Source: Ferruginibacter sp. (GTDB lineage: Bacteria; Bacteroidota; Bacteroidia; Chitinophagales; Chitinophagaceae). From it: 64,000 nt of DNA. Under the pieces are notes generated by a model, which was not told the origin of the DNA, did no database searches, and saw only the letters and a list, made by a program, of their open reading frames with translations. The position numbers were made by a program, and so were the translations under genes. Shown in pieces: positions 11,887 to 62,234 of this stretch (the stretch's first letter is position 1; every line of letters starts with the position of its first letter). The stretch spans positions 1 through 64,000 of the forward strand of contig JAQBNH010000017.1 of assembly GCA_028288705.1 (NCBI GenBank), read 5' to 3'.

Positions 11887-11889
11887 GCG

Positions 11890-24312: not shown

Positions 24313-25920
24313 ATGAGATCTAAACTCTACTCAATCAAGGTATGCAGCCTTTTGATCATTCTCCTCAGTTTTTTTAGTATCAACAAATCTTCTGCACAAC
24401 AGTACTTAACCACAATCGATGGCTGGAATGCTTATGTTCATCTTCCGGATGATTATAACGACGGAACATTGAAGCGTTACCCGTTGATTTGTTTTGTTCC
24501 GGGCCTGGGAGAAGTAGGAACAGATCCGACAAAAATGTTAGTATACGGTCCATCAAAATATGTAGCAGAAGGGCATAATATGCAGTTCATGGTGAACGGT
24601 CGAATCGAGAAGCCAATCGTTATTTCCATTCAGCCTTTGAGTGCATGGCCTGGCGCGGCAACGATCAATCGCAAAATGGACAGCATCTTCAATCGTTTCC
24701 GTTGCGATTTGCAACGTATCAATGTTACCGGGCTTTCTATGGGCGGTTGGACATGGGATAACTTTGTTGATGGTTACAATCCGGTTTATACAAATAAAAT
24801 AACTTCTATCGTTTCGTTAAGCGCTCCGGAACCAGATAATACCGTTGCTAATATGCGCCAGTTTGCTGAGGCGGGCGGTAAATTTTGGGCCTTTGAAGGA
24901 AACCAGGATCTGCGCGGCAATGATAAGATCCGCGACACCATGAACAAATATGTTTTAGGATCTGCGCGCTACACATTATTCAGCGGCGGTCACTGTTGCT
25001 GGAATACTTTTTACAATCCCACATACACAGAAAATGGCGAAAGCGTTTATACGTGGATGTTAAAGCAAAAGAAGCCAATGGCACCCGCTGCACCACAAGC
25101 TGATGCTGGCAACGATTCCAGTATTGCAGTTGTTGTGCCTGCCGTTCCATTAAAAGGTTGGGGTAATGACCCGAACGGTTTACCAATCAACTTTGCATGG
25201 AGGAAAATATCAGGTCCGGCTGCAGGAACGATATCTAATCCCGGAACTTCACAAACAACGATTTCAGGATTAACTTCCGGGATATACCGGATAGAACTTG
25301 CAGTAACAAATTTCCTTGGATCAGTTGCAAAGGATACTATCCTGATCAACAATGGCAACCTGGTGTTACCACTCACGTTGACTGATTTTACCGCTAAAGC
25401 CTCCAAACAGTCAGTTGTGCTGCAGTGGAAAACAGCAAACGAAATCAACAGCAGTTATTTCATTATTGAGAGGAGTAACAATGGTACACAGTTCAACAGC
25501 GAAGGAAATGTACAAGCTACGGCGCTGCCAGGCCAGGGCGCGAATTACAACTTTACTGATGCAACCCCTGAAGCAGGAATAAATTACTATCGCCTGAAAA
25601 TCGTTGACAAAGACGGCCGTTTCGAATACTCAAAGGTTGTAAATGCGAACATCGCAGATATCAAAAATTCCAGTGCGGAAATTCTCACAGTGCATGCCGC
25701 CACTTCAACGATAGAAGTCCAGATCAATAGCAACAAAGCACAACAAATCAGTCTGCTGGTGTCAGACGTAAGCGGCAGAAAGTTATTGGTAACGTCGTTG
25801 AATTTACAGAAAGGCCTTAACAGGATTTCGCAATCACTAAACCTGGTGCGTGGTATGTATATCACCAGAATGATAACAGCATCGGAAGAATTTACAAGCC
25901 TGCCTTTTATTAAACAATAA
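24313..25920 (+). CDS. T9SS-secreted alpha/beta-hydrolase with PKD-like domain (hydrolase 1)
   Basis: 535 residues with a signal peptide (about 1-29). The hydrolase domain (~30-255) has W-N-A-Y-V-H-L-P, F-V-P-G-L-G-E-V-G, the nucleophile elbow G-L-S-M-G-G-W (Ser142), a probable acid Asp199 (E-G-N-Q-D) and His227 in G-G-H-C-C-W. A PKD/Ig-like domain (~262-345) and an FN3-like domain (~350-445) follow, then a T9SS type A-like sorting domain. It resembles esterase/PHB-depolymerase-type secreted hydrolases. The same N-terminal domain recurs at the front of the protein at 56082-62234. Substrate unknown. Its position next to polysaccharide synthesis genes suggests a polymer-directed esterase, which is inference. 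Confidence 0.78.
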   Translation: MRSKLYSIKVCSLLIILLSFFSINKSSAQQYLTTIDGWNAYVHLPDDYNDGTLKRYPLICFVPGLGEVGTDPTKMLVYGPSKYVAEGHNMQFMVNGRIEKPIVISIQPLSAWPGAATINRKMDSIFNRFRCDLQRINVTGLSMGGWTWDNFVDGYNPVYTNKITSIVSLSAPEPDNTVANMRQFAEAGGKFWAFEGNQDLRGNDKIRDTMNKYVLGSARYTLFSGGHCCWNTFYNPTYTENGESVYTWMLKQKKPMAPAAPQADAGNDSSIAVVVPAVPLKGWGNDPNGLPINFAWRKISGPAAGTISNPGTSQTTISGLTSGIYRIELAVTNFLGSVAKDTILINNGNLVLPLTLTDFTAKASKQSVVLQWKTANEINSSYFIIERSNNGTQFNSEGNVQATALPGQGANYNFTDATPEAGINYYRLKIVDKDGRFEYSKVVNANIADIKNSSAEILTVHAATSTIEVQINSNKAQQISLLVSDVSGRKLLVTSLNLQKGLNRISQSLNLVRGMYITRMITASEEFTSLPFIKQ

Positions 25921-25941
25921 TAATTTAAGTATAGATAGGGG

Positions 25942-25977
25942 AATAGGTAGTGTTGAAAGACGCTACCTATTTTTTTG
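25942..25977. terminator. Bidirectional terminator between hydrolase 1 and the leftward polysaccharide block
   Basis: AATAGGTAG (25942-25950) pairs with CTACCTATT (25963-25971) and is followed by a T run through 25976. It serves the rightward hydrolase gene, and the stop codon of the leftward EEP gene lies inside its right arm. Confidence 0.8.
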
Positions 25978-27090
25978 TAGGCGTAGGTCAGTCACCAGGC
26001 CATTATGGTCACTCGCATCGGTGATGATCCGTTTGGTTTGTTGTGCTGAAAAGTAGGAAGAATGAAAGATATAATCTATCCTGAGTGTGGGGGAAATAAA
26101 CTGGAAAGTTTTACCAATGCCCGCCCCTTTTTCGAGCCACGCATCCTGCAGTCCCTTTTTTAGTTGCGTGTACGCATAGCTGGTAGGAACGTCATTGAGA
26201 TCACCGGTAAAAATTACCGGCCGTTGCTGGGCCGCGATCATATTCCTCACGATTTCTACCTGCGCGAAGCGCTGACCATAACCATACTTCAATTTTCGGA
26301 TAATATTCATGGAGCCTGCCAAGGCACTGTCTTTCCCATGTTTGATGGCTTGCAGCGCGCGGTATTCATTGTTTTGAAAACGGAAAGACTGCAAGCGCGT
26401 TGTAATCACATTGATCGTGTCCTTACCTACTAAAATTCCCGCGCGGATGGCACTACCTGCAAATGGCAGTTCGTATTGTTTGCGTGCGGTATCTACAATC
26501 GGAAATTTACTAAAGATGATGCTGCCACTGTAGAAAGACTTGTCGAATTTTGGGTAATCAAAGGAAAAGAAATGATAGGGATAGCCCATCGTGCGGGAGA
26601 TAGAATCGATAAAATTGTAGTGCCCGTTCGGCGCCATGCCGGTGAACAATTCCTGTAAGCAAATTACATCCGCATTGAGGGTTTTCAATTCCCCGAGAAT
26701 AACCAGGTTATTTTTTATCGCCGTGCCGGAATCGATCGCGGTGTAATTCATTAGCCCAACATTCCAGGTAACAACGCGCAAATCGCCACCTTCCTTTATA
26801 TCATTAAATGCCGGTCGATTCAGCCCGACACTTGCAAAGATGTTTGGCAAACTCAGGCAGAGTGACAGGAAAGATACCCAAGCCTTCTTACGATCACAAA
26901 TCAACCAGAAAATAAAAAAGCAAAAAGTACCAGCGAGCAACACCGGAAAAATAAGTCCGCAAAGTGCCACTGGCCAGAAACGCACGGGATTTGCCAGCGG
27001 TGAAAGATTGCTCATAAGCATTAAAACAAGGCAAAAAATATTTGCTATGAAAATACCGCGGAACAATTTTCTTTTTAGCGATTCGTTCAT
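25963..27090 (-). CDS. Membrane-anchored endonuclease/exonuclease/phosphatase (EEP) family hydrolase
   Basis: 375 residues. About three hydrophobic segments (roughly 12-30, 38-66 and 72-90) anchor it in the membrane. The EEP domain follows with T-W-N-V-G (Asn110), L-Q-E (Glu147), G-D-L-N-D (296-300), R-I-D-Y-I-F and S-D-H-N-G (360-364), so the metal and catalytic residues are complete. The family includes nucleases and lipid or inositol phosphatases. Membrane-bound versions are common in Bacteroidota and of unknown substrate. It is the last gene of the leftward block, 3 bp after a methyltransferase gene. Confidence 0.85.
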   Translation of the reverse strand: MNESLKRKLFRGIFIANIFCLVLMLMSNLSPLANPVRFWPVALCGLIFPVLLAGTFCFFIFWLICDRKKAWVSFLSLCLSLPNIFASVGLNRPAFNDIKEGGDLRVVTWNVGLMNYTAIDSGTAIKNNLVILGELKTLNADVICLQELFTGMAPNGHYNFIDSISRTMGYPYHFFSFDYPKFDKSFYSGSIIFSKFPIVDTARKQYELPFAGSAIRAGILVGKDTINVITTRLQSFRFQNNEYRALQAIKHGKDSALAGSMNIIRKLKYGYGQRFAQVEIVRNMIAAQQRPVIFTGDLNDVPTSYAYTQLKKGLQDAWLEKGAGIGKTFQFISPTLRIDYIFHSSYFSAQQTKRIITDASDHNGLVTDLRLQKNR

Positions 27091-27093
27091 GAT

Positions 27094-27855
27094 CTATTTC
27101 GACACGTAATAAATAGCGTCGCCTTTCCAGAATCCATATTTGTAATTATCTGCTTCCGAAAATTCAGCAGTATAGTCATCAACACGCACATTAAAACCGG
27201 CAGCGCGCAGGCGATCTGCATAATCCAATCCGTAATAACGCACGTGCTCTTTTAAACCAAAGGCTTTCAATCTTTCCTGCGGATCAGTGATGCTGGAATC
27301 TTCATAAGTCTTAACTGTTTTGCCATTGATCGGAACCTGCATGATGCCCCATCCGCCAGGTGTCATCAATTTGTACAGATTATTGATCGCAGTTTTATCA
27401 TCTTCAATATATTGGAAAACGTGATTGCAAATGATCACATCATAACTATTGTCGGGTTCATTGTGATTCAGCACGTCGAAATATTGCGTGCCTGCAGGAT
27501 AAAGGTGCGGGAAAATATCAACTGGATGATAATCGATATTTTTTTGCTTTTTAAAATGACTCATGAAAATTGTTTCGGGTGCAACATGAAGCATTTTGTG
27601 CGGCTTGGTATATAAGTCTGTTTTATTTTCAAAGTACATCCAAAGCAGGCGATGTCGTTCCAGGCTTTCACATTTAGGGCACCAGGCATTTTTCCGGCGA
27701 CTGTCTCCAAACGGCGCAAACTCACTGTATTTGCTGCCGCAGCAAGGGCACAACACTTTATTACCCGCTAATTTGAGTCGGAGAAATTGCAACCGGACCT
27801 TATTCAGGATCGGGAATAATGGCCCCAGTGCTTCTTTTGCTTGTGTGCTTAACAT
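27094..27855 (-). CDS. Class I SAM-dependent methyltransferase with zinc-knuckle N-terminus
   Basis: 253 residues. A likely zinc site is formed by C-P-C-C (Cys36, Cys39) and C-P-K-C (Cys59, Cys62). A methyltransferase fold follows (M-L-H-V-A-P-E, then D-V-I-I-C-N-H-V-F-Q-Y-I and P-G-G-W-G). The glycine-rich SAM loop is replaced by H-V-A-P-E, as in several Bacteroidota polysaccharide-cluster methyltransferases. It is likely to methylate a sugar or a cell-surface precursor in the cytoplasm. It is in a tight operon with the deacetylase gene (21 bp) and EEP gene (3 bp). Confidence 0.78.
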   Translation of the reverse strand: MLSTQAKEALGPLFPILNKVRLQFLRLKLAGNKVLCPCCGSKYSEFAPFGDSRRKNAWCPKCESLERHRLLWMYFENKTDLYTKPHKMLHVAPETIFMSHFKKQKNIDYHPVDIFPHLYPAGTQYFDVLNHNEPDNSYDVIICNHVFQYIEDDKTAINNLYKLMTPGGWGIMQVPINGKTVKTYEDSSITDPQERLKAFGLKEHVRYYGLDYADRLRAAGFNVRVDDYTAEFSEADNYKYGFWKGDAIYYVSK

Positions 27856-27876
27856 GCTAATGTATTTTACTATTTG

Positions 27877-28893
27877 TTAGAATCGGTGTACTTTATTTTT
27901 ACTACGGAATTGTTGAACAGACATAAACGTAAGCATTCCTTTTAATTGTTTTTGCAGGGAAATATCAGGTCGCTCTGCATTGAAACGATGAACCATTTTA
28001 TTGTGCAATTCATCCTTCTGATTTTGGATGCCGAAGAAAAGATCGACGTCTGTTAAAACTAACTTATCAAATAATTGTTGCGGAAGGCTTTGATCTGAAT
28101 ATGGAAAAGAAAAGAAATTATGTTCTGCATGAAGTTTGTCACGCACATAAGCGCACGAATGCAAGGTTTGATCGAGTTGCTGCTGTTCGTTCAGCTGCTG
28201 GTAATACGGATGATCCCAGCTATGCGCGCCAATTGTAAACCCGCGCTGCTGCAGCTGTTGAAGTTGCTCAAACCTTAAAAAAGGTTGCTGCTGTTGCAAG
28301 TAATCGGCGTATGAAAAATTTATGTTACCTGCAATGTTATCGAGTATAAAACTTTTAGATTGACTGATTTGCTTAATTGCAGACACGACGTTTTCAAGAG
28401 TTGGGTCTTTTAATTGAAGGTGAGCTGCACATGCTGACAACATCGCTGGCTGTGGATCTTTTTTCAGTTCGTGGATAAGCAGGCTGGCTTTGCTGCGAAA
28501 GAACAATTGTTTATTATCAATAAAAGCGGGGTTGATAAAAAATATGGCCGGAACAGCTTTCGCCTCCAGGATCGGTGCGATAATATCGAATACTTCGCGG
28601 AAGCCATCATCGAAAGTTAACAGGAATGATTTTTCCGGCAAGCGGTTTTGTGTGTTGATACAATCCAATAAAACTTCCGGGTAAACCGGTTTGTAATATT
28701 TCAATAGAAAATCCAGATCTTCCGTGAACTGCTTAACGTTTTTGTACGCATACAATTCACTGATATGTGGCAATACCTTGTCACTTACTGTATGGTGATA
28801 CGGCAGCAGGGTAGTGGCCGGACTGATCTTTTGTAGTAGCGGCAAAGGAAGGAGCGAACAGCTGTTGTAGTAAAGCTTTTTAAGTAAGTTCAT
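27877..28893 (-). CDS. Polysaccharide deacetylase family protein (NodB/CE4-like)
   Basis: 338 residues. The NodB core is visible: T-F-D-D-G (93-97) supplies the metal-binding and catalytic Asp, and H-S-W-D-H (224-228) gives the two metal-binding His. An unusual Gln-rich segment lies just before (about 199-216). No cleavable signal peptide is evident, so it may act in the cytoplasm or be membrane-associated. It probably removes N- or O-acyl groups from a sugar of the locus polymer. Its start overlaps the preceding glycosyltransferase gene by 14 bp, indicating translational coupling. Confidence 0.85.
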   Translation of the reverse strand: MNLLKKLYYNSCSLLPLPLLQKISPATTLLPYHHTVSDKVLPHISELYAYKNVKQFTEDLDFLLKYYKPVYPEVLLDCINTQNRLPEKSFLLTFDDGFREVFDIIAPILEAKAVPAIFFINPAFIDNKQLFFRSKASLLIHELKKDPQPAMLSACAAHLQLKDPTLENVVSAIKQISQSKSFILDNIAGNINFSYADYLQQQQPFLRFEQLQQLQQRGFTIGAHSWDHPYYQQLNEQQQLDQTLHSCAYVRDKLHAEHNFFSFPYSDQSLPQQLFDKLVLTDVDLFFGIQNQKDELHNKMVHRFNAERPDISLQKQLKGMLTFMSVQQFRSKNKVHRF

Positions 28894-30097
28894 TCTTAAG
28901 CAGTTCGTCGATATAAATTATTTTCTGGTGTTCTGTTTTAAGGAAGTCCTTCTTTGCTGTTTTTATTTTCAGGAGGGATTTTACCTGCGTAATCATGAGC
29001 TTAGGAATATGAATCAATGATTCCATCATGCCGCGCTGATGACTTTGCGTGGCGATGATCAGAACAAAATTAAGTGCGTAGAAAAATAATAAAATGATCC
29101 ATGCGATCGCGATAAATGGCGCCACAAAAATCGAAATAACAAAAAGGACCACCATCATCATAATCAGCATAAACATTGGAGGACGTAACATTGTTGTTCC
29201 TAATAATATTCTTCCGGGATGCATGGTTTTTATTCCTGCCCAAAATAACTGCCAGCTATCGTTAAAGTGGTTGAAGTAAGTATAGATCCAACGCGTACGT
29301 TGTTTTTCAAAAACATCACTTTCTTCTACTTTTTCATCATACACAATTGCATCACCGGCAAATCCAATCTGCTTAACCTTTCTCGCGAGCTGCGACTGTA
29401 ATTTTTTATCAAACCCGCCAATCGTGTCCTGGTAACGGATCTCGCGATATAACGCAAGTTCCAGCGCGATGCCCAATCCGAGAATAGCAGAAGAAATCCC
29501 CAGTTCCATTTTTACAGTACGTTCGAGAAATGTATAATAGATATGCCCCACAGAATCCAGTTTCGCGTAAGTGCTGCCGGTGTTCTTTGAGAGCATATGT
29601 GTCTGTACAACGCGAAAGCCACGCTGGAAATAGTGATTTAGATTTTGCAGGTAATTTGGATGAACAAGATTATCACTATCGAAAATAATCATTGCATCGT
29701 GTTCCTTTTTGAAATGATCGATCGCGTAGTGGATAGACTTTATTTTAGAATGCAATGCCACCTCGGGTTTGAGAATTACAATACGCGGATCGTTATAATA
29801 CGCTTGAACATCAGGGCAATCATCAGCCACAACATAAAGCGTAAAATTGCTATAAGCTTGTTTAAGAAAAGAATCAACGAGCGGTGCGATAAATCTGGTA
29901 TCCTGGTGGGCAGTAACGATTGCTGCAAAATCAAAATCTTTGTTGAACTTTACGGGGTAACGTTGTAATAGATTTTTTCGTTTTCCGCCGGTAAGATAGT
30001 GCAGCGCGAAAAGCAGTATTGGAACAAAGAAATAGAAGGCAACGATAATATTCGCGGCATAAAAAAGGTATTTAAGTATGGCAATAACAATCTCCAT
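28880..30097 (-). CDS. Membrane-bound GT2 family glycosyltransferase
   Basis: 405 residues. An N-terminal membrane segment (~5-36), a GT-A catalytic domain with V-A-D-D (89-92), the D-S-D nucleotide/metal motif (140-142) and a Q-R-T-R-W motif (265-269) typical of processive beta-glycosyltransferases, then two C-terminal membrane segments (~295-345). It may polymerise or extend a beta-linked chain. It is 0 bp from the methyltransferase gene upstream and overlaps the deacetylase gene downstream. Confidence 0.85.
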   Translation of the reverse strand: MEIVIAILKYLFYAANIIVAFYFFVPILLFALHYLTGGKRKNLLQRYPVKFNKDFDFAAIVTAHQDTRFIAPLVDSFLKQAYSNFTLYVVADDCPDVQAYYNDPRIVILKPEVALHSKIKSIHYAIDHFKKEHDAMIIFDSDNLVHPNYLQNLNHYFQRGFRVVQTHMLSKNTGSTYAKLDSVGHIYYTFLERTVKMELGISSAILGLGIALELALYREIRYQDTIGGFDKKLQSQLARKVKQIGFAGDAIVYDEKVEESDVFEKQRTRWIYTYFNHFNDSWQLFWAGIKTMHPGRILLGTTMLRPPMFMLIMMMVVLFVISIFVAPFIAIAWIILLFFYALNFVLIIATQSHQRGMMESLIHIPKLMITQVKSLLKIKTAKKDFLKTEHQKIIYIDELLKNELT

Positions 30098-30850
30098 TTA
30101 GGATTTATTTTTTTGCCAAACCGTAACGAAGCCACCGGTACAGCCATACGGCAGCCATTCCGCAATTGCACAATCCATTTTCTGTAAAACCTTTAATCGC
30201 TTTGCAAGAAAAGAGAAAGGGAAAACATCTTCAACGAAATTTGTTTTCCCAAACTTCATGATTTTAAATTTTGTCTTTTCAGCCAGTTGTTCCAATGAAT
30301 TTTTTGTGAAGAACTGGATATGCGTCAGGTCACTGGCATCAGATTGTGCAGTCGTTCCCTTGTAACCCAATGCAGATTTTGTCTTCTGCACTGTTTTCCA
30401 GACAAGGTTATTTTTTTTCTGCAGGTTGATGATCGGTTTTGTCACAAAAACTTCACGGGGCCCTTGTCCATTAGGAACAGTAACGATCAGAACGCCGTCA
30501 TCCGTTATTGACTGGTATAATACTTCTAATAATTTTGCAGGTTCGTTTAAATGTTCGAGTACTTCACTACAGATGACCGCGTTATATTTCACCCCTTCTG
30601 CAACCAATTGTTCGGCGCTTTTTACATCAAACTTTACGTTGGGATAAATGTTTAGCTGTCTTGCTTTCTGTATTGTTTTCTCGCTGATGTCAACACCATA
30701 AACATTAAATCCTTCTTTCCCCAGGCTTCGCGAAATAACGCCATTGCCACATCCCACATCCAGCACAACTGCGCCCTGAGGGAGCTTTTCTTTTAATGTA
30801 TCAATGATAAAATTCAAACGCTTAATGTCAGCAATTCTCTCAAACTCCAT
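30098..30850 (-). CDS. Class I SAM-dependent methyltransferase (UbiG-like)
   Basis: 250 residues. The SAM-binding motif V-L-D-V-G-C-G-N-G (29-37) is followed by G-V-D-I-S (motif II), S-E-V-L-E-H-L (post-II) and V-P-N-G-Q. Such enzymes methylate sugar hydroxyls or acids in surface polysaccharides, though the acceptor cannot be told. Its start overlaps the end of the GT4 gene by 11 bp. Confidence 0.85.
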   Translation of the reverse strand: MEFERIADIKRLNFIIDTLKEKLPQGAVVLDVGCGNGVISRSLGKEGFNVYGVDISEKTIQKARQLNIYPNVKFDVKSAEQLVAEGVKYNAVICSEVLEHLNEPAKLLEVLYQSITDDGVLIVTVPNGQGPREVFVTKPIINLQKKNNLVWKTVQKTKSALGYKGTTAQSDASDLTHIQFFTKNSLEQLAEKTKFKIMKFGKTNFVEDVFPFSFLAKRLKVLQKMDCAIAEWLPYGCTGGFVTVWQKNKS

Positions 30851-32009
30851 TGTAAACTTTTTCTTGGTGATGATTATCTTTCCGGGTCAACGCTGCATAA
30901 ACCGTTTCAATTTGCCTTGTCATGGCAGCGGCGTCAAATTTATTTTTGACCGTAAGTACGGCATTCGTTTCAAATTCTTTTCGCATCTGCTCATCCGTAC
31001 TGATTTGCACGATAGCCGCTGCTAAATCTTCGGTCAAATTACTTAATTCTATTAACAAACCGTTCTTCTTATGTTCGATCACTTCGCAGGTTCCATCTAC
31101 GTTGGTGCCGATCACGGCTTTCCCCATACTCATTGCTTCCAGTAGGCCGATTGGTAATCCTTCCCATAGAGATGGCAGCACAAAAATATCTGCAGCAGCG
31201 AGTACATCCGGAACATCCTGGCGAAATGATTGAAAGATTACGCGTTCTTGAATGCCCAACTGTTTTACGAGTTGTAAGGCTTCGGCTTTTTCATCGCCGT
31301 CACCAACCATTAATAATTTTAATGAGGGATTTTTCTCCACTGCTACCGCAAAAGCTTTCAGTAAAGCCAACGGTTGTTTATGTGAAGTGAAACGGGCAAT
31401 AAACAGCACCAGCGTTTCCCCGGAACTAATTCCAAGTTCTTCGCGGATATTTTTAAAATTCCCCTGCGGGTTAAAGCGCTTCCGGTCAATCCCGTTATTG
31501 ATCACCTCTGAATTAAAATTATGGAGATATTTCTGCCCCGATTTTTTGTTGGAATCCGAGACGGAAATATTCACATCCATTTTTGAAGTGAGGAGTTTTT
31601 CACCGCCCACACGGATCTTACGAACGAGCGGATGTTGGTCTCCATGAAATGACCAGCCGTGAACAGTATAAATGATGGGTAATTTTAATGATTTCGCGGC
31701 CCAAAACACGTTGGAATTGGCGCGGGTGCCGTGCGCATGAACGAGGTCAATTTTCTCCCCGAGGATCAACTGCTTCACTTTCTTCCATTTCCTGATATCA
31801 AAAGGCTTTTCGGTGTGGATGATATGCGTTGGCACATTCATCGCTTTTAAGCGATCGATCATCGGCCCGTCTGTGAAAGATAACACCACAGGTTCATAAA
31901 GATTGCGGTCCAGGTTTTCGACAAGACTGAGCAAGTGACTTTCGCCACCACCGATCTGTCCCTGGCGGATGCACTCTAAAACGCGTATTTTTCTTTGCAG
32001 TTGGGGCAT
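30840..32009 (-). CDS. GT4 family glycosyltransferase
   Basis: 389 residues with the GT-B fold. The N-terminal domain has G-G-G-E-S-H-L; the C-terminal domain has L-V-L-F-I-A-R-F-T-S-H-K and the E-x7-E motif (E-G-L-P-I-G-L-L-E-A-M-S-M-G-K-A-V-I-G-T). It retains the donor-sugar transfer mechanism and likely adds one sugar to the lipid-linked repeat unit at the cytoplasmic face. It follows a 104-bp gap after the upstream GT2 gene with no terminator. Confidence 0.9.
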   Translation of the reverse strand: MPQLQRKIRVLECIRQGQIGGGESHLLSLVENLDRNLYEPVVLSFTDGPMIDRLKAMNVPTHIIHTEKPFDIRKWKKVKQLILGEKIDLVHAHGTRANSNVFWAAKSLKLPIIYTVHGWSFHGDQHPLVRKIRVGGEKLLTSKMDVNISVSDSNKKSGQKYLHNFNSEVINNGIDRKRFNPQGNFKNIREELGISSGETLVLFIARFTSHKQPLALLKAFAVAVEKNPSLKLLMVGDGDEKAEALQLVKQLGIQERVIFQSFRQDVPDVLAAADIFVLPSLWEGLPIGLLEAMSMGKAVIGTNVDGTCEVIEHKKNGLLIELSNLTEDLAAAIVQISTDEQMRKEFETNAVLTVKNKFDAAAMTRQIETVYAALTRKDNHHQEKVYNGV

Positions 32010-32113
32010 TAGTGAGTTACAAAATAGTAAAGAATTCCGTCAGCCAGCGATTTTATTTCGCATAAGATCGCCTTGCATTGCGTAGCAATACTTCCCTGTA
32101 GTCAAATAAATGA

Positions 32114-33034
32114 TTATACTACGGAATGTTTGGAAGTGGTAAGGTTCCAGGTAATGCCTTTAATAAAGGATTTCAGGTGTTTGAATTCCTTTTTTGCAGC
32201 AAATTTCAGCACTGTTTTAGGAACGGTAAGCAGGCCGAAAAAGCCAATAAATACGGCAAATTGTCCAAGGCTTGCGTGTCGGCGCATATAAAGAATGCGG
32301 TTACGCGTCATGAAATGAACCTTTACGGCACTGGCTTTACCCATGCTCATTGATTCTTTATGAAAGATCAGGCCCTGAGCCTGGTAGTAGATCTTATAAC
32401 CTGCTTTAATGATGCGTGCACTCCAGTCTGATTCGTCATAATACACGAAATATTTTTCCGCCATCATGCCCACCTTATCGATCACTTCTCTTTTTACCAT
32501 CATTGCGCATCCGTGAGCGCTATGTGTAAAACCGGATACGTCATGCTGACCGTTATCCACTTCAAGGCTTCCAACAGCGGTTGTTTTGCCGGTAAGCATG
32601 CTCATTTTATTAAAGCCTGCATATTGGATAACAGTAGGGTTGTGGTGAAAACGGATCTTCGGGCATACCACGCCGATAGTTGGATCCATGTAAAAAGGTT
32701 CCAGGCATTTTTCGATCAGATCAGGTGTTACTTCTGCATCATTGTTTACCTGGAAGCAAAAATCATAATCAGGCCTCGAATGGCGCATGCCAAAATTATT
32801 ACCGCCGGCAGAACCGAGGTTCACAGGGCTTTTTACAATTTTTACGTTCGGATAATTTCCCGCCAGGATTCTTGCAGTGGGATCTTCGTTAGAGCCATTG
32901 TCGACAACAATGATCTCATAATTTTTGTACGTGAAATTTCGTGTACTTTCTAAAAATTCGCAGGTGACATCGGTTCCGTTCCAATTGAGTGTAACGATTG
33001 AAACAAATGGATTGTCCTCTTTTAAGGTTCGCAT
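32114..33034 (-). CDS. GT2 family glycosyltransferase (WbbL/rhamnosyltransferase-like)
   Basis: 306 residues. GT-A features: V-S-I-V-T-L-N-W-N-G near the N-terminus, V-D-N-G-S (46-50), N-N-D (the D-x-D equivalent) and H-G-C-A-M-M-V-K-R, followed by F-V-Y-Y-D-E-S-D-W-S. A short hydrophobic stretch near the end may touch the membrane. The closest recognised group is WbbL/RfbF-like rhamnosyltransferases. Donor sugar is not certain. Confidence 0.88.
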   Translation of the reverse strand: MRTLKEDNPFVSIVTLNWNGTDVTCEFLESTRNFTYKNYEIIVVDNGSNEDPTARILAGNYPNVKIVKSPVNLGSAGGNNFGMRHSRPDYDFCFQVNNDAEVTPDLIEKCLEPFYMDPTIGVVCPKIRFHHNPTVIQYAGFNKMSMLTGKTTAVGSLEVDNGQHDVSGFTHSAHGCAMMVKREVIDKVGMMAEKYFVYYDESDWSARIIKAGYKIYYQAQGLIFHKESMSMGKASAVKVHFMTRNRILYMRRHASLGQFAVFIGFFGLLTVPKTVLKFAAKKEFKHLKSFIKGITWNLTTSKHSVV

Positions 33035-33078
33035 CAGTTTTAATTTATTTAGTGTGGTGGCCGAGGTAAGGCCGTAGG

Positions 33079-34191: not shown

Positions 34192-34253
34192 AAACAATAT
34201 TTAATCGTGTAGTTCATTCATCGAGGTAAGCGATAGTCAGAACCAGAGATGGG

Positions 34254-46911: not shown

Positions 46912-46926
46912 TAAACCGTTTTGTAC

Positions 46927-48045: not shown

Positions 48046-48047
48046 GT

Positions 48048-50720: not shown

Positions 50721-50721
50721 T

Positions 50722-52221: not shown

Positions 52222-52250
52222 AGGTTATAGAATTAGTGCCGGGAGCACTA

Positions 52251-52258: not shown

Positions 52259-52287
52259 TAACCTGACCCGATGTTAAATTTACTTTT

Positions 52288-53037: not shown

Positions 53038-53038
53038 T

Positions 53039-53983: not shown

Positions 53984-53985
53984 GA

Positions 53986-55455
53986 TTAAAATTGAAAATA
54001 AATAAATTCCTGTTCCGCGTTAGCGCTCGCAAAATAGAAGATCAGCAAGACGAGGCTATAGTAAAATGCCCATCGTACAGGCTTTGGAAAACGAAAGCCC
54101 CAGTTATATATCGCATATTGATGTTCCCGGCCCAGCCATTCTATAAAAATAAATACCGCCACTAATATCGGCAGGCCATAGCCGACCGTTTGTTTTATAA
54201 AATGCCCGGCTGAGATGTAAGTTGCTTTGTCGAACAAGCCGGTCGTCATCCGCGCAATATAATCTGCAGCATGACTTACATTTTCTGCACGGAAAAATAT
54301 CCATGCGATGACGGTTAATGAAAAAGTGATGATCATCGCAAAAAATTCCCTGGGCGTTGGAAATAATTTTCCCTGGGCAACTGTATCCAGGTTATTCCGG
54401 TTATAATTGAAAAGAATGGATGGCATGATATACAGGGCGTTTAAAAATCCCCATACGATAAATGTCCAGTTGGCGCCATGCCAGAAGCCGCTCACCAGAA
54501 AAATGATAAATGTATTGCGCACTTTCATCAACGTGCCGCCCTTACTGCCTCCAAGGGGAATGTAGAGGTAATCACGAAACCAGGTCGACAGGGAAATATG
54601 CCAGCGCCGCCAGAATTCTGCGATGTCGCGGGAAAAATAAGGGAAGGCAAAATTGCGTAACAATTCAATCCCGAAAAGGCGCGCAGTGCCCAGGGCGATA
54701 TCCGAATAGCCGGAGAAATCGCAATAGATCTGGAAAGTAAAAAACAAGGCTCCCAATACCAGTGTCGCGCCGGAATAATCGCTGGCATTGTTAAAGATCA
54801 TGTTCGCATACTGGGCGCAACTATCGGCGATCACGATCTTTTTAAACAGCCCCCAAAGGATCTGGCGTAGTCCATCGATCGCACGTGTGTAATCAAATTT
54901 TCGTTCCCGTTGAATTTGTGGAAGCAGGTGGGTCGCCCTTTCAATCGGGCCAGCCACAAGAAGCGGAAAGAAGCTCACGAAGACAGAGTAATCGATAAAG
55001 TTTTTTTCCGGCTTGATCCGTTCTTTATAAATATCGATTACATATGAAAGTCCGTGGAAGGTGTAAAAAGAAATGCCCACGGGCAAGATAACTTTCAACG
55101 TCCAGAAATTTGCATGAAAGCCCACCAGCGAAAGTGCTTCTGCAAAAGACTGGGCAAAGAAATTATAATATTTGAAAACGCCTAAAAAGCCGAGGTTGAT
55201 TCCGACGCTTAACCAAAACCAGAATTTCTTCATTGATTTCGTAGGCGCGCTGGCCATCTTCAGGCCCGTGAAATAATCAAGCAAGGTCGAGAAGATCAGC
55301 AGGAATAAAAACCGGTAGTCCCAACAGGCATAAAAAAAATAACTGGAGACGAGTAGTAAAACGTTCTGTCGTTTGTGATCGCCTTTTGTAGCAAACCAGT
55401 ACAGCAGGAAAACTATGGGTAAGAACAGGGCAAAACTCAGCGAATTAAAAAGCAT
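53986..55455 (-). CDS. MBOAT family O-acyltransferase (AlgI/DltB-like)
   Basis: 489 residues with about 10-12 hydrophobic helices. Family marks: F-Y-A-C-W-D-Y-R-F near the N-terminus, W-R-R-W-H-I-S-L-S-T-W-F-R-D-Y-L-Y-I-P-L-G-G in the middle and S-G-F-W-H-G-A-N-W with the catalytic His. These proteins acetylate alginate, teichoic acids or other secreted polymers. No alginate polymerase genes are in the window, so the acceptor is probably the polymer of this locus. The SGNH-like partner is encoded 2 bp downstream. Confidence 0.92.
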   Translation of the reverse strand: MLFNSLSFALFLPIVFLLYWFATKGDHKRQNVLLLVSSYFFYACWDYRFLFLLIFSTLLDYFTGLKMASAPTKSMKKFWFWLSVGINLGFLGVFKYYNFFAQSFAEALSLVGFHANFWTLKVILPVGISFYTFHGLSYVIDIYKERIKPEKNFIDYSVFVSFFPLLVAGPIERATHLLPQIQRERKFDYTRAIDGLRQILWGLFKKIVIADSCAQYANMIFNNASDYSGATLVLGALFFTFQIYCDFSGYSDIALGTARLFGIELLRNFAFPYFSRDIAEFWRRWHISLSTWFRDYLYIPLGGSKGGTLMKVRNTFIIFLVSGFWHGANWTFIVWGFLNALYIMPSILFNYNRNNLDTVAQGKLFPTPREFFAMIITFSLTVIAWIFFRAENVSHAADYIARMTTGLFDKATYISAGHFIKQTVGYGLPILVAVFIFIEWLGREHQYAIYNWGFRFPKPVRWAFYYSLVLLIFYFASANAEQEFIYFQF

Positions 55456-56081
55456 CCTATCTCTGTTGTCGTTTAGTAATGGTAAAAGGTGGTGGAAAAT
55501 CAGCAGCAGCCTGCCCGGATGCCGCGCTTTATTTTATCTCCTGGTTGTCAAGTTCCTAAGAAAGAAAATAAGGTCTGCAGGCGACCTTTTCAACTTTAAA
55601 AATAGAGAAAACTTTACCAACTTCAAAAATGTTCCAAAAATCCCGAAAACTGCAGCCCCACGGGTTTGTCTGTGGGGATAATATTGTGGAAAATTTTTCT
55701 GTTACAACAATGCATTCAATATGAAGAAGTTACTATCCGGCCGTGAAAAAAAACGGTGGGATTCAGTGTGGAATAGTGTTTTGATAGTATATTTACAACG
55801 AGACGATCGTTTCACACTCCCTCATAATCCTTTTCCTTTTTTGAACGCGTTTAGATTTCAGTGCCATATTATTTTGGTCTGATTTTTGAGAAACGCCGGC
55901 AACCAGAATTATGCCGAACGAAAAAACCTACCGTTGCATGCCTTGAAAGAATATGCGAATATTTTTTCACAGACAAATAGAATGAAATGACCAAGACCAT
56001 TTACTGTTTGATTAAGGTGGCTTCAGATGAAAAAACCGTTTTAATTTTTGATCAATCCAATAATCAGAACACGCCTTCGTG
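55456..56081. promoter_or_regulatory. Long divergent intergenic region upstream of hydrolase 3
   Basis: About 625 bp without a credible gene, holding the divergent promoters of the MBOAT gene and the 2050-aa hydrolase gene. The forward ORF at 55415-55681 starts inside the MBOAT gene and has no domain-like content. No exact TAnnTTTG box, terminator or long repeat is evident. The distance suggests a long leader or distal regulation for the giant gene. Confidence 0.5.
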
Positions 56082-59000
56082 ATGAGAAAAATAAATTGTA
56101 TCTGCAAGATCGCAATCTTACTGTTTGCAACCTGCATGCTTTGGCCTTCAGTAAAAGCGCAACAAACGCTCACCCAAATAAACGGCTGGAATGCTTATGT
56201 ACATCTTCCCGCGAGCTACAACAGCAGTTCTGCGAATTACCCCACGATCATCTTTTTTCCCGGCCTTGGTGAAGTAGGAAATACTGCTTCCAAAGTGATC
56301 CAATACGGTCCGGGCGCATATATCGCTCAGGGTTGGAATGGTAATGTTACAGTTGCCGGAAGCCTGGTGGAATTCATAGTGATCAGCCTGCAAACGCCGA
56401 ATGCATTTCCTAATGAGAACCAGATGAATGCCCGCATTCAGAATATTAAAAATAATTACCGTGTTGATCCAAACAGGCTTTACCTCACAGGTCTTTCGCA
56501 CGGTGGATGGTGCAGCAGCACGTTCGTTACCGGGGATAATGCAAACGGGCCGTATACCTATGCTTCCCAGATTGCTGCTGTTGTTACAGTTCAGGGTATG
56601 ATCCCGGATGATAACCAACCTTATCCAAATCTTTTCGACAATTTCGCTAACGCTGGCGGAAAATACCTTGGCTTCGAGCAAACGCTTGATGGCCGGGATA
56701 CACGCACCGTAGTAGACAGGATGAATATGACCAAGCCAAATTCCGCTGTGTATGTTCAAACGAGTTATGGTGGAGGCGGTCACTGCTGCTGGAGTGAATA
56801 TTATGGAGGTAATGGTACTCAGCCGGGGACTTATATGTTGCAGGGCGTAAACCAGAATATTTATCAGTGGATGGCCCGCCAGACACTTGGTCCGCCCGCG
56901 AATATTCCCCCTACTGCAAATGCCGGAACAGATAAAGTGATCGCTTTCCCGGTTTCTTCTACAACATTAACGGGATCGGGTTCAGATCCCGACGGAACAA
57001 TAACAGGGTATCAATGGACAAGAATCTCTGGTCCTGCTTCCGGCACAATTGTTTCTCCGGCTTCTGCCATCACCAACCTGATCAACCTGGCAGAAGGGAC
57101 TTATCAATATGAGCTGAAAGTAACTGATAATTCCGGTGCTTCAGACCGGGATACCGTAAACGTTACGGTTGTTGTTGCGGGAAATCAGGCACCTACGGCA
57201 AATGCGGGACCTGATCAAACGATCACCTTACCAACAAGCGTAGCGCTGTTGAATGGTAGCGGAACAGATCCGGATGGCGTCATTACAAATTATAACTGGG
57301 CGCAACTATCTGGGCCAAATACAGCCACTTTAACAGGCGCCGCATTGCCATTCGCCGTGTTGAGCAATCTGGTACAGGGCTATTATAAATTTAGGTTGCA
57401 GGTGATGGATAATAACGGTGCGATCGACACGGATACCGTTGCAATTACGGTGAATCCTGTTCCGCCTATCCCTTGTAACAATTTGCCCGGCGTGAAATAT
57501 TTTCTTTCGCAAACTGGTGCAGGCGAAATTTACAGGCCGAATGGCTCTGCATGGAAAGGTGGCGATACGATCGTGATCACCGGAACTAATTATTCTGTTA
57601 TCGAGTTTAATAATATTGGCGGCGATCCCTGCCGGCCATTGGTGATTATGCCGCTTACAACGGTTTCTACTCCGGTTTTCCGAATCAAAGGGAAATCTCA
57701 TCATATTAAATTATGGGGTGGACCAACAGCTTACGGTATCAGGGTAAACGGCCCGCTGGCACTTACGATGTGTGATCATATCGAAGTAAATAATATTGAA
57801 TGTTACGGCGGAAGCAATGGCATTTATTGCAAGCAGGATCCTATTTATGCTGATCCGTCAACCTGGCAATCGAGCGGTTACGTGATGAGTAATTTTAAGT
57901 TCCGTAATATATGGGTGCATGATTGTGATGGCGAAGGCATGTATATTGGTGTCACGCAACCTGATGGCGTGGTACGTCAAAAGCCGGATGGGTCAGACAC
58001 CTTAATTGTTCCGATCCGTCTGGATAGTGTTGAAATCTCCAATTGCCTTGTAGAACGCAGTACGTGGGACGGCATACAATTAAGTAATGCACGCGGAGGC
58101 AACAAGATCTTCAATAACGTTGTGAAGAATTACGGCACGATCAATATGAGCAGCCAGCAGGCGGGGATCATACTTGGCGGCAACACAAGTGGTGACGTCT
58201 ATAATAACACGATTCGCCAGGGAACAGGAAACGGAATGGAAATTTTTGGATACGGCGTGATCAATGTATATAATAATACGCTGGATAGCTGCGGATATGA
58301 CGGAACAGCCAATGGTCAGCAATCTATCTATGCAAGTGATTTCCTGATCAGCTCTGATACCAATCCAAAGCAGACCATCATCGCCTACGGAAATAACATC
58401 AATCGGCCGAAAACTGCCGGAGCCATCTTTATCACCGGTTATTATAATAATTCATTTCCCTCTTCTGTGTATAATAATACTTTCTGTATTCCGGGTGCGC
58501 CAACTAACTGGCAATCCACTTACCTTAAACTTAATGTTTACGGAAGCGTGAATACGAATAACACGCTTTATTGTTCCAGCAGTTCTGCGCCTTTTTCGAA
58601 TGCGGGTCCCGATCAAACAATCAGCCTTCCGCAAACGACCGCGGTGCTCACAGGTTCAGGGATGGATCCTGATGGAACGATCGTAGGATACCAGTGGACG
58701 AAAGTGAGCGGACCTTACGGCACCATCCTGAACAGTACCAACCCAACAACAAATGTTGAGTCGCTCCAGGCCGGAACATATAAATTTGAACTGCTGGTGA
58801 CAGATAATGGCGGAGCTACTGCGCGTGACACGATGCAACTGAATTTGGTTGCACCGAATCAACTTCCGACCGTAAATGCCGGCCCGGATCAAACAATCCA
58901 GTTGCCGGTAAATATTGCGACACTCACGGCGATTGCTTCGGATAGTGATGGGACGATCACAAATTATCAATGGACAAAAATTTCGGGTCCTGCGGGAGGA

Positions 59001-62000
59001 TCCATTGCTGCATCAGCTGCTGCAACAACAACGCTTTCCGGCCTTCAACAGGGTACTTACAGTTTTGAATGTAAAGTGACCGATAACGCCGGGGCTATTG
59101 CGCGCGATACTGTAAACGTTATTGTAAATTCCGCAGGCAATATAGCTCCTGTTGCCAACGCAGGTCCTGATCAAACCATCAGCTTACCGGTTAACGTGGT
59201 GAATTTATCAGGCGCAGGAACAGATGCCGATGGGATAATCTCCAGCTATCAGTGGGTAAAGATTTCCGGTCCTTATGGCACGATACTCAGCGTAAACGCG
59301 GCGTCCACAGTTGTTGAATCTTTGGTAACCGGTACATACAAATTTGAATTGACGGTCACAGATAATAACGGTGCAACAGGGAAGGATACCGTTCAGGTTA
59401 CCGTGAATGCGCCGGCAAATCTGCCGCCGGTGGCACATGCAGGTGGCGACCAGGTGATCAGTCTTCCGCAAACCACCGCTACGTTAAATGGCAGTGGCAC
59501 TGATGCCGACGGAACGATCAATGCTTTTTACTGGGCTAAATTATCCGGCCCTTCAGGTGGAATTATTGCCAATCCTTTAGTCGCATCTGCAGCGATCAGC
59601 AGTTTATCGCAAGGCGTGTACAAATACGAACTAACGGTTACCGATAACAGCGGTGCATCTGCAAAAGATACCATGCAACTTACTGTGAATGCAGCTGCAC
59701 CGCCGCCAAATATTTTGCCGGTAGCCAATGCAGGACCTGACCAGGTTGTTACGCTTCCTGTTAATAACGTTTCGCTGAATGGTGTAGGGACCGATGCTGA
59801 CGGTACGATCACCGGTTACCAGTGGACGAAAATTTCAGGGCCCGCTGCTGGAACAATTAATAATTCCGGTGCTCCAACTGCGACCGCCGTCAATCTGGTA
59901 CAAGCAATATATTTATTTGAATTAACGGTGACAGACAATAACGGCGCCACCGCGAAGGACACCGTTCAGGTGACTGTCAATCCAGCTGCAAATATTCCGC
60001 CAACGGCGATTGCCGGAAACGACCAGGTGATTACGCTTCCTGTAAATTCGGTTAATTTAAATGGCAGTGGAACAGATCCTGACGGAAACATTGTGATCTT
60101 TTCATGGAATAAAATCTCCGGTCCAACGGCAGGCATAATCAACAATCCAAATGCCTTGGGAACATCCGTTACAGGAATGGTTCAGGGACTGTACAAATTT
60201 GAATTAACGCTGGTCGACAATAACGGTGCAGCAGGGAAAGACACAATGGAAGTCTTGGTAAATCCTGCGCTCAACCTTGCCCCAATCGCTAATGCAGGAA
60301 CTGATAAGGTTATTACTTTGCCTGTCAACAGCTTGTCTTTCACCGGAGCAGGAACAGATACCGACGGAACAATTACCGCTTATCAATGGCTGAAGATTTC
60401 CGGGCCGGCTGCAGGAACGCTTACCAATGCGAGTGTTGCTACAACATCAGCCATTAACCTTGTGCAGGGCGTTTACCAGTTTGAATTAACAGTAACGGAT
60501 AATAATGGCGCAACAGGAAAAGATACGATGCAGGTGATCGTCAACGCGGCCTTGAATATCGCACCTGTGGCGAATGCGGGGGCTGACAAAATAATTACGC
60601 TTCCTGTAAATACGGTCTCAATAATCGGTAACGGCACTGATACGGATGGAATTATTGCCAACTATCAATGGCTGAAGATTTCCGGGCCGGCTGCAGGAAC
60701 GCTCTCCAATGCCAGCGCGTCAACAACATCAGCTATTAACCTTGTACAGGGCATTTATCAGTTTGAATTAACCGTAACGGATAATAACGGCGCAACAGGA
60801 AAAGATACAATGCAGGTATTTGTAAATGCAGCTCCTAATATCGCTCCAACGGCGATCGCCGGTAACGACCAGGTGATCACACTGCCGCTTAACAGCATCA
60901 ATCTAAATGGCAGCGGTACAGATCCGGATGGAACGATCGTTGGCTTCTTATGGACAAAAATTTCGGGGCCTTCTGCCGGCAACATAAGTAATCCAAATGG
61001 ATTGGGAACAACTGTTACCGGAATGGTGCAGGGAACCTATCGTTTTGAACTTACGCTTACCGATAATAATGGTGGCATTGGAAGGGACACGATGCAGGTG
61101 ATTGTAAATCCGGCGCCGAATGTTGCACCAACTGCCTACGCCGGTAACGACCAGACGATCCAATTGCCGGTGAACTCAGTGAACCTTTCGGGCAGCGGAA
61201 CAGATTCTGATGGGTTTATTGCCGCTTACCAATGGACAAAAATCCTCGGCCCTTCGGCTACCATCATCAGCGCTAATGCCTCTGCAACCACGGTATCTGG
61301 GTTAGTCCAGGGAATCTATGTTTTTGAACTACGGGTAACGGATAATAATGGTGCGATCGCAAAAGATACCATGCAGGTTACTGTTCTGGCGGCTCCTAAT
61401 CTTCCTCCAACTGCCAATGCGGGGGCAGACCAGGACATCAGCTTGCCGGTGAACCTGATTGGGTTGCTCGGAGCCGGAACCGATCCTGACGGTTCCATCG
61501 TTGGCTACCAGTGGACAAAAATTGCGGGGCCAACAGCTGTAATAGGAAACCCAAATGCGATTGCTACCAGCGTGTCAGGCTTAATCGAAGGCACTTATAG
61601 TTTTGAATTAAAGGTGACGGATAACAACGGCGCATCTGCGAAAGACACGATGCAGGTTTTCGTTCATCCCGCACCAGTTATTCCGAATGTTGCGCCGGTG
61701 GCTCACGCAGGGAGTGCGATCAGTATATTATTTCCTGTGAACAATGTTGATCTTACCGGATGGGGAACAGATGCTGACGGCACCATCGTTTCCTACCAAT
61801 GGCGCGTAGTGAGCGGCCCGGTACCTTATACGCTTGTTACAGCAAACCAACCACAAACTGCGTTTCGTAATCTGGTAGAAGGAATTTATGTCCTGGAGCT
61901 GACCGTTACAGATAATAATGGCGCAACAGGGAAAGATATTGTGCAGGTAACGGTAGGGAATAGCCGCCTGAAGCCCGATTTGAATGACGTGCAAATCTAT

Positions 62001-62234
62001 CCGAACCCAGTAACCGACCAGGCACATGCAAAACTGTATGTGACCAAAGATAAAACAGCGAAACTGGTGCTGACAGATGCTCGGGGCGCCATCCTGATGC
62101 AAAAAGAAGTTCAGATCAATTCTGTCTTGCAGGAAGAAGTTATCAGCATGAGGCAGTATCCTGCCGGCATCTATTTCTTGAAACTGGAATCACCATCAAC
62201 GAAACCGGTATCTAGGAAAATAGTGAAATTATAA
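56082..62234 (+). CDS. Giant T9SS-secreted alpha/beta-hydrolase with PKD array and beta-helix domain (hydrolase 3)
   Basis: 2050 residues from the ATG at 56082 (a GTG one codon earlier is less likely); signal peptide ~1-26 (ending V-K-A-Q). Alpha/beta-hydrolase ~28-268 with G-W-N-A-Y-V-H-L-P, F-P-G-L-G-E-V-G, G-L-S-H-G-G-W (Ser139) and G-G-G-H-C-C-W (His234). Two PKD-like domains (~275-460), then a beta-helix domain (~462-834, Asn-rich turns such as N-N-I-E-C-Y-G-G-S-N-G-I and V-Y-N-N-T-I), then 12 more PKD-like repeats (~835-1960), then a T9SS type A sorting domain (I-Y-P-N-P-V, G-I-Y-F-L-K-L). The hydrolase domain is clearly related to that of the gene at 24313-25920. It may act on, or hold, the extracellular polymer. 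It ends 7 bp from the convergent HAD gene. Confidence 0.82.
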   Translation: MRKINCICKIAILLFATCMLWPSVKAQQTLTQINGWNAYVHLPASYNSSSANYPTIIFFPGLGEVGNTASKVIQYGPGAYIAQGWNGNVTVAGSLVEFIVISLQTPNAFPNENQMNARIQNIKNNYRVDPNRLYLTGLSHGGWCSSTFVTGDNANGPYTYASQIAAVVTVQGMIPDDNQPYPNLFDNFANAGGKYLGFEQTLDGRDTRTVVDRMNMTKPNSAVYVQTSYGGGGHCCWSEYYGGNGTQPGTYMLQGVNQNIYQWMARQTLGPPANIPPTANAGTDKVIAFPVSSTTLTGSGSDPDGTITGYQWTRISGPASGTIVSPASAITNLINLAEGTYQYELKVTDNSGASDRDTVNVTVVVAGNQAPTANAGPDQTITLPTSVALLNGSGTDPDGVITNYNWAQLSGPNTATLTGAALPFAVLSNLVQGYYKFRLQVMDNNGAIDTDTVAITVNPVPPIPCNNLPGVKYFLSQTGAGEIYRPNGSAWKGGDTIVITGTNYSVIEFNNIGGDPCRPLVIMPLTTVSTPVFRIKGKSHHIKLWGGPTAYGIRVNGPLALTMCDHIEVNNIECYGGSNGIYCKQDPIYADPSTWQSSGYVMSNFKFRNIWVHDCDGEGMYIGVTQPDGVVRQKPDGSDTLIVPIRLDSVEISNCLVERSTWDGIQLSNARGGNKIFNNVVKNYGTINMSSQQAGIILGGNTSGDVYNNTIRQGTGNGMEIFGYGVINVYNNTLDSCGYDGTANGQQSIYASDFLISSDTNPKQTIIAYGNNINRPKTAGAIFITGYYNNSFPSSVYNNTFCIPGAPTNWQSTYLKLNVYGSVNTNNTLYCSSSSAPFSNAGPDQTISLPQTTAVLTGSGMDPDGTIVGYQWTKVSGPYGTILNSTNPTTNVESLQAGTYKFELLVTDNGGATARDTMQLNLVAPNQLPTVNAGPDQTIQLPVNIATLTAIASDSDGTITNYQWTKISGPAGGSIAASAAATTTLSGLQQGTYSFECKVTDNAGAIARDTVNVIVNSAGNIAPVANAGPDQTISLPVNVVNLSGAGTDADGIISSYQWVKISGPYGTILSVNAASTVVESLVTGTYKFELTVTDNNGATGKDTVQVTVNAPANLPPVAHAGGDQVISLPQTTATLNGSGTDADGTINAFYWAKLSGPSGGIIANPLVASAAISSLSQGVYKYELTVTDNSGASAKDTMQLTVNAAAPPPNILPVANAGPDQVVTLPVNNVSLNGVGTDADGTITGYQWTKISGPAAGTINNSGAPTATAVNLVQAIYLFELTVTDNNGATAKDTVQVTVNPAANIPPTAIAGNDQVITLPVNSVNLNGSGTDPDGNIVIFSWNKISGPTAGIINNPNALGTSVTGMVQGLYKFELTLVDNNGAAGKDTMEVLVNPALNLAPIANAGTDKVITLPVNSLSFTGAGTDTDGTITAYQWLKISGPAAGTLTNASVATTSAINLVQGVYQFELTVTDNNGATGKDTMQVIVNAALNIAPVANAGADKIITLPVNTVSIIGNGTDTDGIIANYQWLKISGPAAGTLSNASASTTSAINLVQGIYQFELTVTDNNGATGKDTMQVFVNAAPNIAPTAIAGNDQVITLPLNSINLNGSGTDPDGTIVGFLWTKISGPSAGNISNPNGLGTTVTGMVQGTYRFELTLTDNNGGIGRDTMQVIVNPAPNVAPTAYAGNDQTIQLPVNSVNLSGSGTDSDGFIAAYQWTKILGPSATIISANASATTVSGLVQGIYVFELRVTDNNGAIAKDTMQVTVLAAPNLPPTANAGADQDISLPVNLIGLLGAGTDPDGSIVGYQWTKIAGPTAVIGNPNAIATSVSGLIEGTYSFELKVTDNNGASAKDTMQVFVHPAPVIPNVAPVAHAGSAISILFPVNNVDLTGWGTDADGTIVSYQWRVVSGPVPYTLVTANQPQTAFRNLVEGIYVLELTVTDNNGATGKDIVQVTVGNSRLKPDLNDVQIYPNPVTDQAHAKLYVTKDKTAKLVLTDARGAILMQKEVQINSVLQEEVISMRQYPAGIYFLKLESPSTKPVSRKIVKL
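58585..61960 (+). repeat. Array of 12 PKD-like coding repeats (~280 bp each)
   Basis: Units open with a pattern like A-N-A-G-x-D-Q-x-I-x-L-P-V-N and close with L-T-V-T-D-N-N-G-A-x-x-K-D-T-M-Q-V. Neighbouring units near 60280 and 60560 are 282 bp apart and almost identical over long stretches (both contain GGGCCGGCTGCAGGAAC), showing recent duplication. Units near 60000 and 60840 resemble each other more than their neighbours, a sign that a two-unit block may have been copied. Confidence 0.85.

Follow-up and report, generated by a model that had tools for sequence, protein, structure and literature searches.

Giant esterase-like proteins with type IX sorting domains at a Wzx/Wzy-type exopolysaccharide locus of Ferruginibacter and related Chitinophagaceae

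The window analysed here, 64,000 nucleotides from the start of contig JAQBNH010000017.1 of Ferruginibacter sp. (assembly GCA_028288705.1), carries a polysaccharide synthesis locus and three genes, here called H1, H2, and H3, for secreted-looking α/β-hydrolases of 535, 2357, and 2050 residues. Our main finding is that the H2 giant and the Wzz type of this locus occur together across the Chitinophagaceae and are usually close neighbours. We propose that H2, H3, and probably H1 are carbohydrate esterases exported by the type IX secretion system (T9SS) and held at the surface, where they would belong to the exopolysaccharide of the locus, binding and de-acylating it. We consider this proposal reasonably probable, with some room for the alternatives weighed below. 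Its starting points are direct observations, as follows: the genes, their domains, the conserved catalytic triad of H2, the recurrent neighbourhood, and the co-occurrence.

The H2 giant and its recurrent neighbourhood

A preliminary description of this DNA, made from the sequence alone, had set in advance a test of its idea, namely that T9SS hydrolase giants should be found repeatedly beside Wzx/Wzz loci in Chitinophagaceae. For H2, this is what is seen. In a set of 117 genomes of the family, H2 (E ≤ 1e-20) is present in 32, including one, G104, in which it is represented by a fragment, and the Wzz type of this locus (E ≤ 1e-70) is present in 30. Both genes are found in 29 genomes, H2 alone in three, Wzz alone in one, and neither in 84 (Fisher p 6e-23, phylogeny not corrected). 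The two lie within 25 kb of each other in 26 of the 29 genomes with both, and on different contigs in the remaining three. The Wzz cut-off falls in a gap between 1e-71 and 1e-49; this cut-off and the bit-score thresholds for core genes were chosen after viewing the maps. A frequent order in related loci is glycosyltransferase, H2, Wzz, acyltransferase, Wzy. The distribution of H2 is patchy, since no H2 giant was found, at the cut-offs applied, in three sampled congeners (G034, G245, and G258).

Neighbourhoods were examined in two sets of loci whose genomes are partly in common. Set A comprises 33 of 53 giants, the other 20 being extra copies from genomes already represented or lying in fragmented genomes (G025, G030, G104). 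At least three of six core genes lie within 20 kb of 29 of the 33, the giant of this locus included. Set B came from a scan of named genomes with one peptide pattern; the best 80 of 91 relatives gave 78 loci, mostly from Chitinophaga, Parafilimonas, Pseudoflavitalea, Paraflavitalea, and other Chitinophagaceae, and the 58 of 83 giant frames flanked by at least 5 kb and 3 kb were analysed. Within 10 kb, 38 of these giants have four or five core genes, two have two or three, three have one, and 15 have none. For seven of the 15 (L172, L185, L186, L187, L197, L198, and L220), the genome has another copy inside a locus, and for L157 the core genes are 10–20 kb off (its genome, G035, is in set A). 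For ten giants of set B (L146, L147, L149, L184, L204, L207, L211, L215, L217, and L221), the number of core genes is below two and no other copy with core genes was seen in the genome; Wzz genes occur in all nine of their genomes that were searchable, a genome-wide presence irrespective of the giant's position. At G028:C6:167-190 kb, an H2 giant that lacks polysaccharide core genes lies about 12 kb from the T9SS translocon gene SprA.

The tightest partner of H2 is an acyltransferase-3 gene, which 26 of 30 giants in set A and 47 of 58 in set B have within 10 kb, compared with two per 890 kb elsewhere in set A loci. Six seeds went into the profile, two of them from this locus and the other four from L204, L211, and L221, so these loci match it by construction; identity was checked in Pfam for a single gene, the one at 46921 of this locus. 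Several loci without the polysaccharide core also have acyltransferase-3, among them L207 (Flammeovirgaceae), L211 (Cyclobacteriaceae), and L221 (Catalimonadaceae). The order in L207 is an H3-type protein (hydrolase domain, 15 PKD stretches, CHU_C tail), PorP/SprF, a further gene, the acyltransferase, and H2, the last split in the record over two frames of 533 and 1694 residues. At L207:2-6769 and L211:1591-9294, records from outside the Chitinophagaceae that also have H2-type giants, PKD giants whose tails are of the CHU_C kind (T9SS type B) are followed by PorP/SprF genes.

Pfam assigns no hydrolase family above cut-off to H1, H2, or H3. A profile of 30 H2 domains matches the esterase 3doh in the PDB at 1.8e-27. 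Among the three hydrolases, the fold was modelled for the H2 domain, with a predicted local distance difference test score (pLDDT) of 90.6, and the top Foldseek match is again 3doh, a thermostable esterase. By its sequence and predicted α/β-hydrolase fold, the H2 domain is kin to EstA-like carboxylesterases of the 3doh/4q82 kind. Residues Ser179, Asp231, and His263 are found without exception in all 30 relatives, and conservation spans the whole of H2 except the LamG region, which is present in five of 20 relatives. Because the triad is invariant and the esterase domain roughly matches the Fn3/PA14 part in its degree of conservation, catalysis by H2 is probably under selection. In a predicted model, repeat 2 of H2 shows jelly-roll kinship with modules like malectin and carbohydrate-binding modules (CBMs); all three repeats look malectin/CBM-like and are putative carbohydrate binders. 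Neither these repeats nor the β-helix of H3 has a PDB sequence relative in searches at E 0.01, and at E 1 two chance-level rows appear.

T9SS tails had been ascribed to all three hydrolases. The tails of H2 and H3 score above the cut-offs of both PF18962 (29.9 and 32.3 bits, cut-off 27) and TIGR04183 (30.7 and 32.9, cut-off 23), whereas that of H1 is weak, falling below the former (18.6) and marginally above the latter (23.5). A tail is found in 17 of 20 H2 relatives (E ≤ 0.001). The tails match TIGR04183, with no PEP-CTERM model among NCBIfam matches at E ≤ 0.01. The N-termini of H1, H2, and H3 are hydrophobic, as judged by eye without a predictor, and the genome encodes SprA, the T9SS part searched for, with SprA_N in a 2441-residue frame.

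The locus and the H1/H3-type family

The locus is of the Wzx/Wzy type, with an initiating transferase (PF02397), flippase (PF13440), polymerase (PF04932), and co-polymerase (PF02706) all detected by Pfam. The families of the synthesis genes between the hydrolases agree with the preliminary description: four GT2, two GT4, Bac_transf, Wzz with an AAA domain, Acyl_transf_3, Wzx, Wzy_C, the outer-membrane efflux protein family OEP, MBOAT, and Polysacc_deac_1 (Table 1). The hydrolases do not bracket the locus, as had been thought, for it continues past H3 and the window's end to C24:69,958. Right of H3 lie genes for HAD, UbiA, a methyltransferase, and a membrane protein, together with a second acyltransferase and two further T9SS proteins, one GDSL-like and one with LamG; the trio is thus not the full set. 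The GDSL-like protein, at the right end of the locus (C24:65669-66907), owes its GDSL/SGNH name to inspection by eye, and Pfam gives no hydrolase family there. No Wza-type outer-membrane exporter was found among the 19 locus proteins scanned, and an OEP protein is present instead.

Four of the 40 T9SS tail matches listed for the genome lie at the locus, in addition to the weak tail of H1. None of the 40 is within 60 kb of the genome's other two Bac_transf sites, C11:153125 and C1:3147, the latter checked on one side as a contig end is 3 kb away. The tails thus cluster at the locus more than chance would give. A different locus, for utilisation of the alginate type, adjoins H1 directly on the left (3891-23596 of the window); it comprises Chondroitinas_B, Alginate_lyase, and Hepar_II_III_C lyases, an SDR, SusC, SusD, and a BD-FAE esterase.

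The open reading frames of the three hydrolases hold the serine elbows and late histidine motifs described earlier, as follows: GLSMGG and GHCCW in H1, GLSSGG and GHGAW in H2, and GLSHGG and GHCCW in H3. The start of H3 is either GTG at 56079 (2051 residues) or ATG at 56082 (2050 residues), and its end is at 62234. Its right-handed β-helix (Pfam Beta_helix, residues 650–800) is an addition to the preliminary description; the N-terminal domain said to be common to H1 and H3 is indeed so, the hydrolase domains being 41–42% identical. A profile of 29 H1/H3-type domains matches carboxylesterase 4q82 in the PDB at 1.8e-34. Ser and His are the catalytic residues located in this type; the Ser is invariant in 29 of 29 and the His motif is present in 26, the other three rows being incomplete. 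The H2 hydrolase domain is a distant relative of that of H3, as seen from weak matches in the H2 relatives of G065 and G077; the H3 domain as query gave no match to this genome's H2 at E ≤ 1e-5.

The H1/H3-type domain is a broader family than H2. Within 31 kb of an H2 giant there are 32 of 134 such domains, in 22 of 32 genomes, against 3.1 expected, and none of 20000 simulations reached as high a number. In G021, a single protein of 1790 residues (L066:10486-15858) joins an H3-type hydrolase, a GDSL-like domain, a β-helix, and PKDs, and this fusion ties H3 to the GDSL-like gene right of the window. The sequence HCCW was tried as a marker of locus-linked H1/H3 domains and rejected, as it is found in some and not in others, and also in L020, which is not near an H2 giant.

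UbiA and HAD genes, with genes that we take to be DprE1-like and DprE2-like, are found together near giants in seven relatives: G021 (L066:15940-19504), G080, G055, G065, G007, G014, and G113. The set suggests a polyprenyl-arabinose-type donor in those relatives. We do not claim an arabinose-containing polymer for the present strain, because a single DprE1 query, run with no positive control, found none in its genome.

Table 1. Features of the polysaccharide locus in the window, with the domains of H2 and H3
Feature	Position	Strand	Remark
H1, 535 aa: signal peptide, esterase-type α/β-hydrolase, PKD (K319L-like), weak T9SS type A tail	24313..25920	+	signal peptide by eye
Exo_endo_phos family protein	25963..27090	-	Pfam
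Methyltransferase	27094..27855	-	
Polysaccharide deacetylase, Polysacc_deac_1	27877..28893	-	
GT2 glycosyltransferase	28880..30097	-	recurs in related loci
Methyltransferase	30098..30850	-	
GT4 glycosyltransferase	30840..32009	-	
GT2 glycosyltransferase	32114..33034	-	recurs in related loci
Initiating sugar-phosphate transferase, Bac_transf	33079..34197	-	recurs in related loci
Response-regulator receiver protein	34254..34679	-	recurs adjoining Bac_transf
GT2 glycosyltransferase adjoining H2	34995..36179	-	recurs in related loci
H2 giant, 2357 aa: esterase domain, Fn3/Ig, PA14, LamG, three malectin/CBM-like repeats, T9SS type A tail	36499..43572	+	
H2 esterase domain	36559..37398	+	Ser179, Asp231, His263
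H2 malectin/CBM-like repeat 1	40687..41226	+	
H2 malectin/CBM-like repeat 2	41797..42336	+	the repeat modelled
H2 malectin/CBM-like repeat 3	42613..43152	+	
H2 T9SS type A sorting domain	43318..43539	+	
GT2 glycosyltransferase	43698..44549	+	
Wzz-like polysaccharide co-polymerase with ATPase domain	44698..46911	+	
Acyltransferase family 3	46921..48045	+	closest usual partner of H2
Wzx-type flippase	48048..49400	+	
GT4 glycosyltransferase	49385..50596	+	
Wzy/ligase-type polymerase, Wzy_C	50722..52221	+	
Short outer-membrane efflux (OEP) protein	52288..53037	+	
Protein without Pfam family	53039..53983	-	adjoining MBOAT
MBOAT O-acyltransferase	53986..55455	-	
H3 giant, 2051/2050 aa: esterase domain, PKD repeats (14 K319L-like stretches), β-helix, T9SS type A tail	56079..62234	+	
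H3 esterase domain	56160..56897	+	
H3 right-handed β-helix region	57468..58577	+	
HAD phosphatase	62242..62835	-	recurs in related loci
UbiA prenyltransferase	62842..63729	-	recurs in related loci

Proposed role and its alternatives

We suggest the following course of events. The membrane acyltransferases (acyltransferase-3 and MBOAT) would add acyl groups to the glycan during its synthesis, and the T9SS giants would encounter the exported polymer outside the cell. There they would bind it through their malectin/CBM-like, PA14, and LamG modules, with PKD/Fn3 stretches as stalks, and cleave acyl esters, so tuning the charge, gelling, and adhesion of the polymer; they may also help retain it at the cell. 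Secretion, an ester substrate, binding to the polymer of this locus, and the order of these events are what we infer. The conserved triad favours catalysis, the esterase kinship together with the acyltransferase partner favours an ester substrate, and the CBM-like repeats favour binding. The earlier interpretation is thus supported in part: the suggestion that the giants bind the polymer gains weight from the three malectin/CBM-like repeats, PA14, and LamG, and the suggestion that they edit it is favoured by the esterase relatives and the usual acyltransferase partner.

Two observations weigh against a tie of the H1/H3 type to the locus. The other 102 of the 134 H1/H3-type copies lie away from H2 giants, and therefore the scattering of homologues off polysaccharide loci, which the preliminary description had named as evidence against itself, is found for part of the family. 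In this genome, two H3-like giants (L142 and L143, 1513 and 1539 residues), one with a hydrolase domain 75% identical to that of H3, are located at C19:419-430 kb, away from the locus, and the 40 kb around them shows no other gene resembling those of the locus.

The giants could instead be mainly scaffold adhesins of the matrix that hold the polymer at the surface, with an esterase domain that is minor or vestigial. Repeats do make up most of each protein, in the form of the malectin/CBM-like repeats, PA14, LamG, and PKD arrays, and the conservation of H2 reaches well beyond its catalytic domain, sparing only LamG. However, a triad without exception in 30 relatives, in a domain about as conserved as the Fn3/PA14 part, makes us consider a mainly structural role rather unlikely.

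An outward role, in which the giants attack outside polysaccharides for nutrient acquisition and their place in the locus is incidental, would suit esterase relatives that include feruloyl and acetylxylan esterases, and the alginate-type locus to the left. SusC/SusD-like genes are near a few giants, mostly those outside polysaccharide loci, but in a BLAST search with the window's pair (E 1e-10) only 2 of 30 and 5 of 58 giants have them within 10 kb, and they are not near H2 here. This scarcity disfavours a nutrient role, as do the core genes around 29 of 33 giants and the tracking of one Wzz type by H2, and we regard it as improbable.

It is tempting to propose that the hydrolases are transacylases, which would transfer acyl groups outside the cell or make ester links between polymers or between polymer and giant, giving a covalent protein–polysaccharide surface layer through the T9SS. 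In mycobacteria, a UbiA/HAD/DprE2/DprE1 set makes the arabinose donor for a glycan that is acylated by secreted enzymes of the α/β-hydrolase fold, and a set of this kind is carried by seven related loci, not by this one. We hold transacylation to be quite improbable. Finally, that the locus makes a glycan anchoring T9SS cargo, hence the cargo genes alongside, has a precedent in Porphyromonas gingivalis, where cargo is tethered to a glycolipid via a Wbp/Vim linking sugar (PMC7468200), but it is very improbable here. All 10 genomes tested have SprA; of these, G034, G003, and G004 have neither H2 giant nor Wzz, and in G245, G258, and G240 no H2 giant is found at E ≤ 1e-25, so the T9SS does not need the locus. 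Moreover, cargo genes at the locus are few against 40 tail matches in the genome.

Comparison with known systems

The nearest PDB sequence relatives of the hydrolase domains are 3doh and 4q82, the former also the nearest by fold. Unlike the giants of the locus, these are proteins of a few hundred residues with no T9SS tail or giant repeats, and we know of no polysaccharide locus for them. The locus itself resembles Wzx/Wzy-dependent exopolysaccharide loci with acylation, having the initiating transferase, glycosyltransferases, Wzx, Wzy, Wzz, and acyltransferases. It differs from them in the T9SS giant esterases inside and in that no Wza-type exporter is seen among the genes scanned. To our knowledge, no Wzx/Wzy-type locus with conserved T9SS giant esterases inside has been described, and we found no description of such an association in those parts of the open-licence PMC literature that were available.

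The association ties a major secretion system of the Bacteroidota to one defined and widespread exopolysaccharide pathway, and it offers a testable function for the T9SS giants found in Chitinophaga and its relatives. If the proposal of surface-held esterases is correct, the H2/Wzz/acyltransferase trio would be a genome marker for the pathway.

In P. gingivalis, as is proposed here, T9SS cargo and a surface polysaccharide act together, in the attachment to anionic lipopolysaccharide (A-LPS); there, however, the glycolipid tethers the cargo, whereas here the T9SS is present without the locus (PMC7468200). The nearest published idea is the link of protein sorting to exopolysaccharide production in the PEP-CTERM/EpsH (exosortase) system (Haft 2006, PMC1569441). 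In that system, too, a sorting system is associated with exopolysaccharide, and it was found through a gene profile and the exopolysaccharide neighbourhood. In contrast, the route here is the T9SS, which also occurs without the locus, and the link is a conserved esterase giant, not the sorting machinery. If the proposal holds, the polymer would receive its final form outside the cell from dedicated T9SS enzymes, in a Bacteroidota counterpart to the exosortase–exopolysaccharide systems of other phyla.

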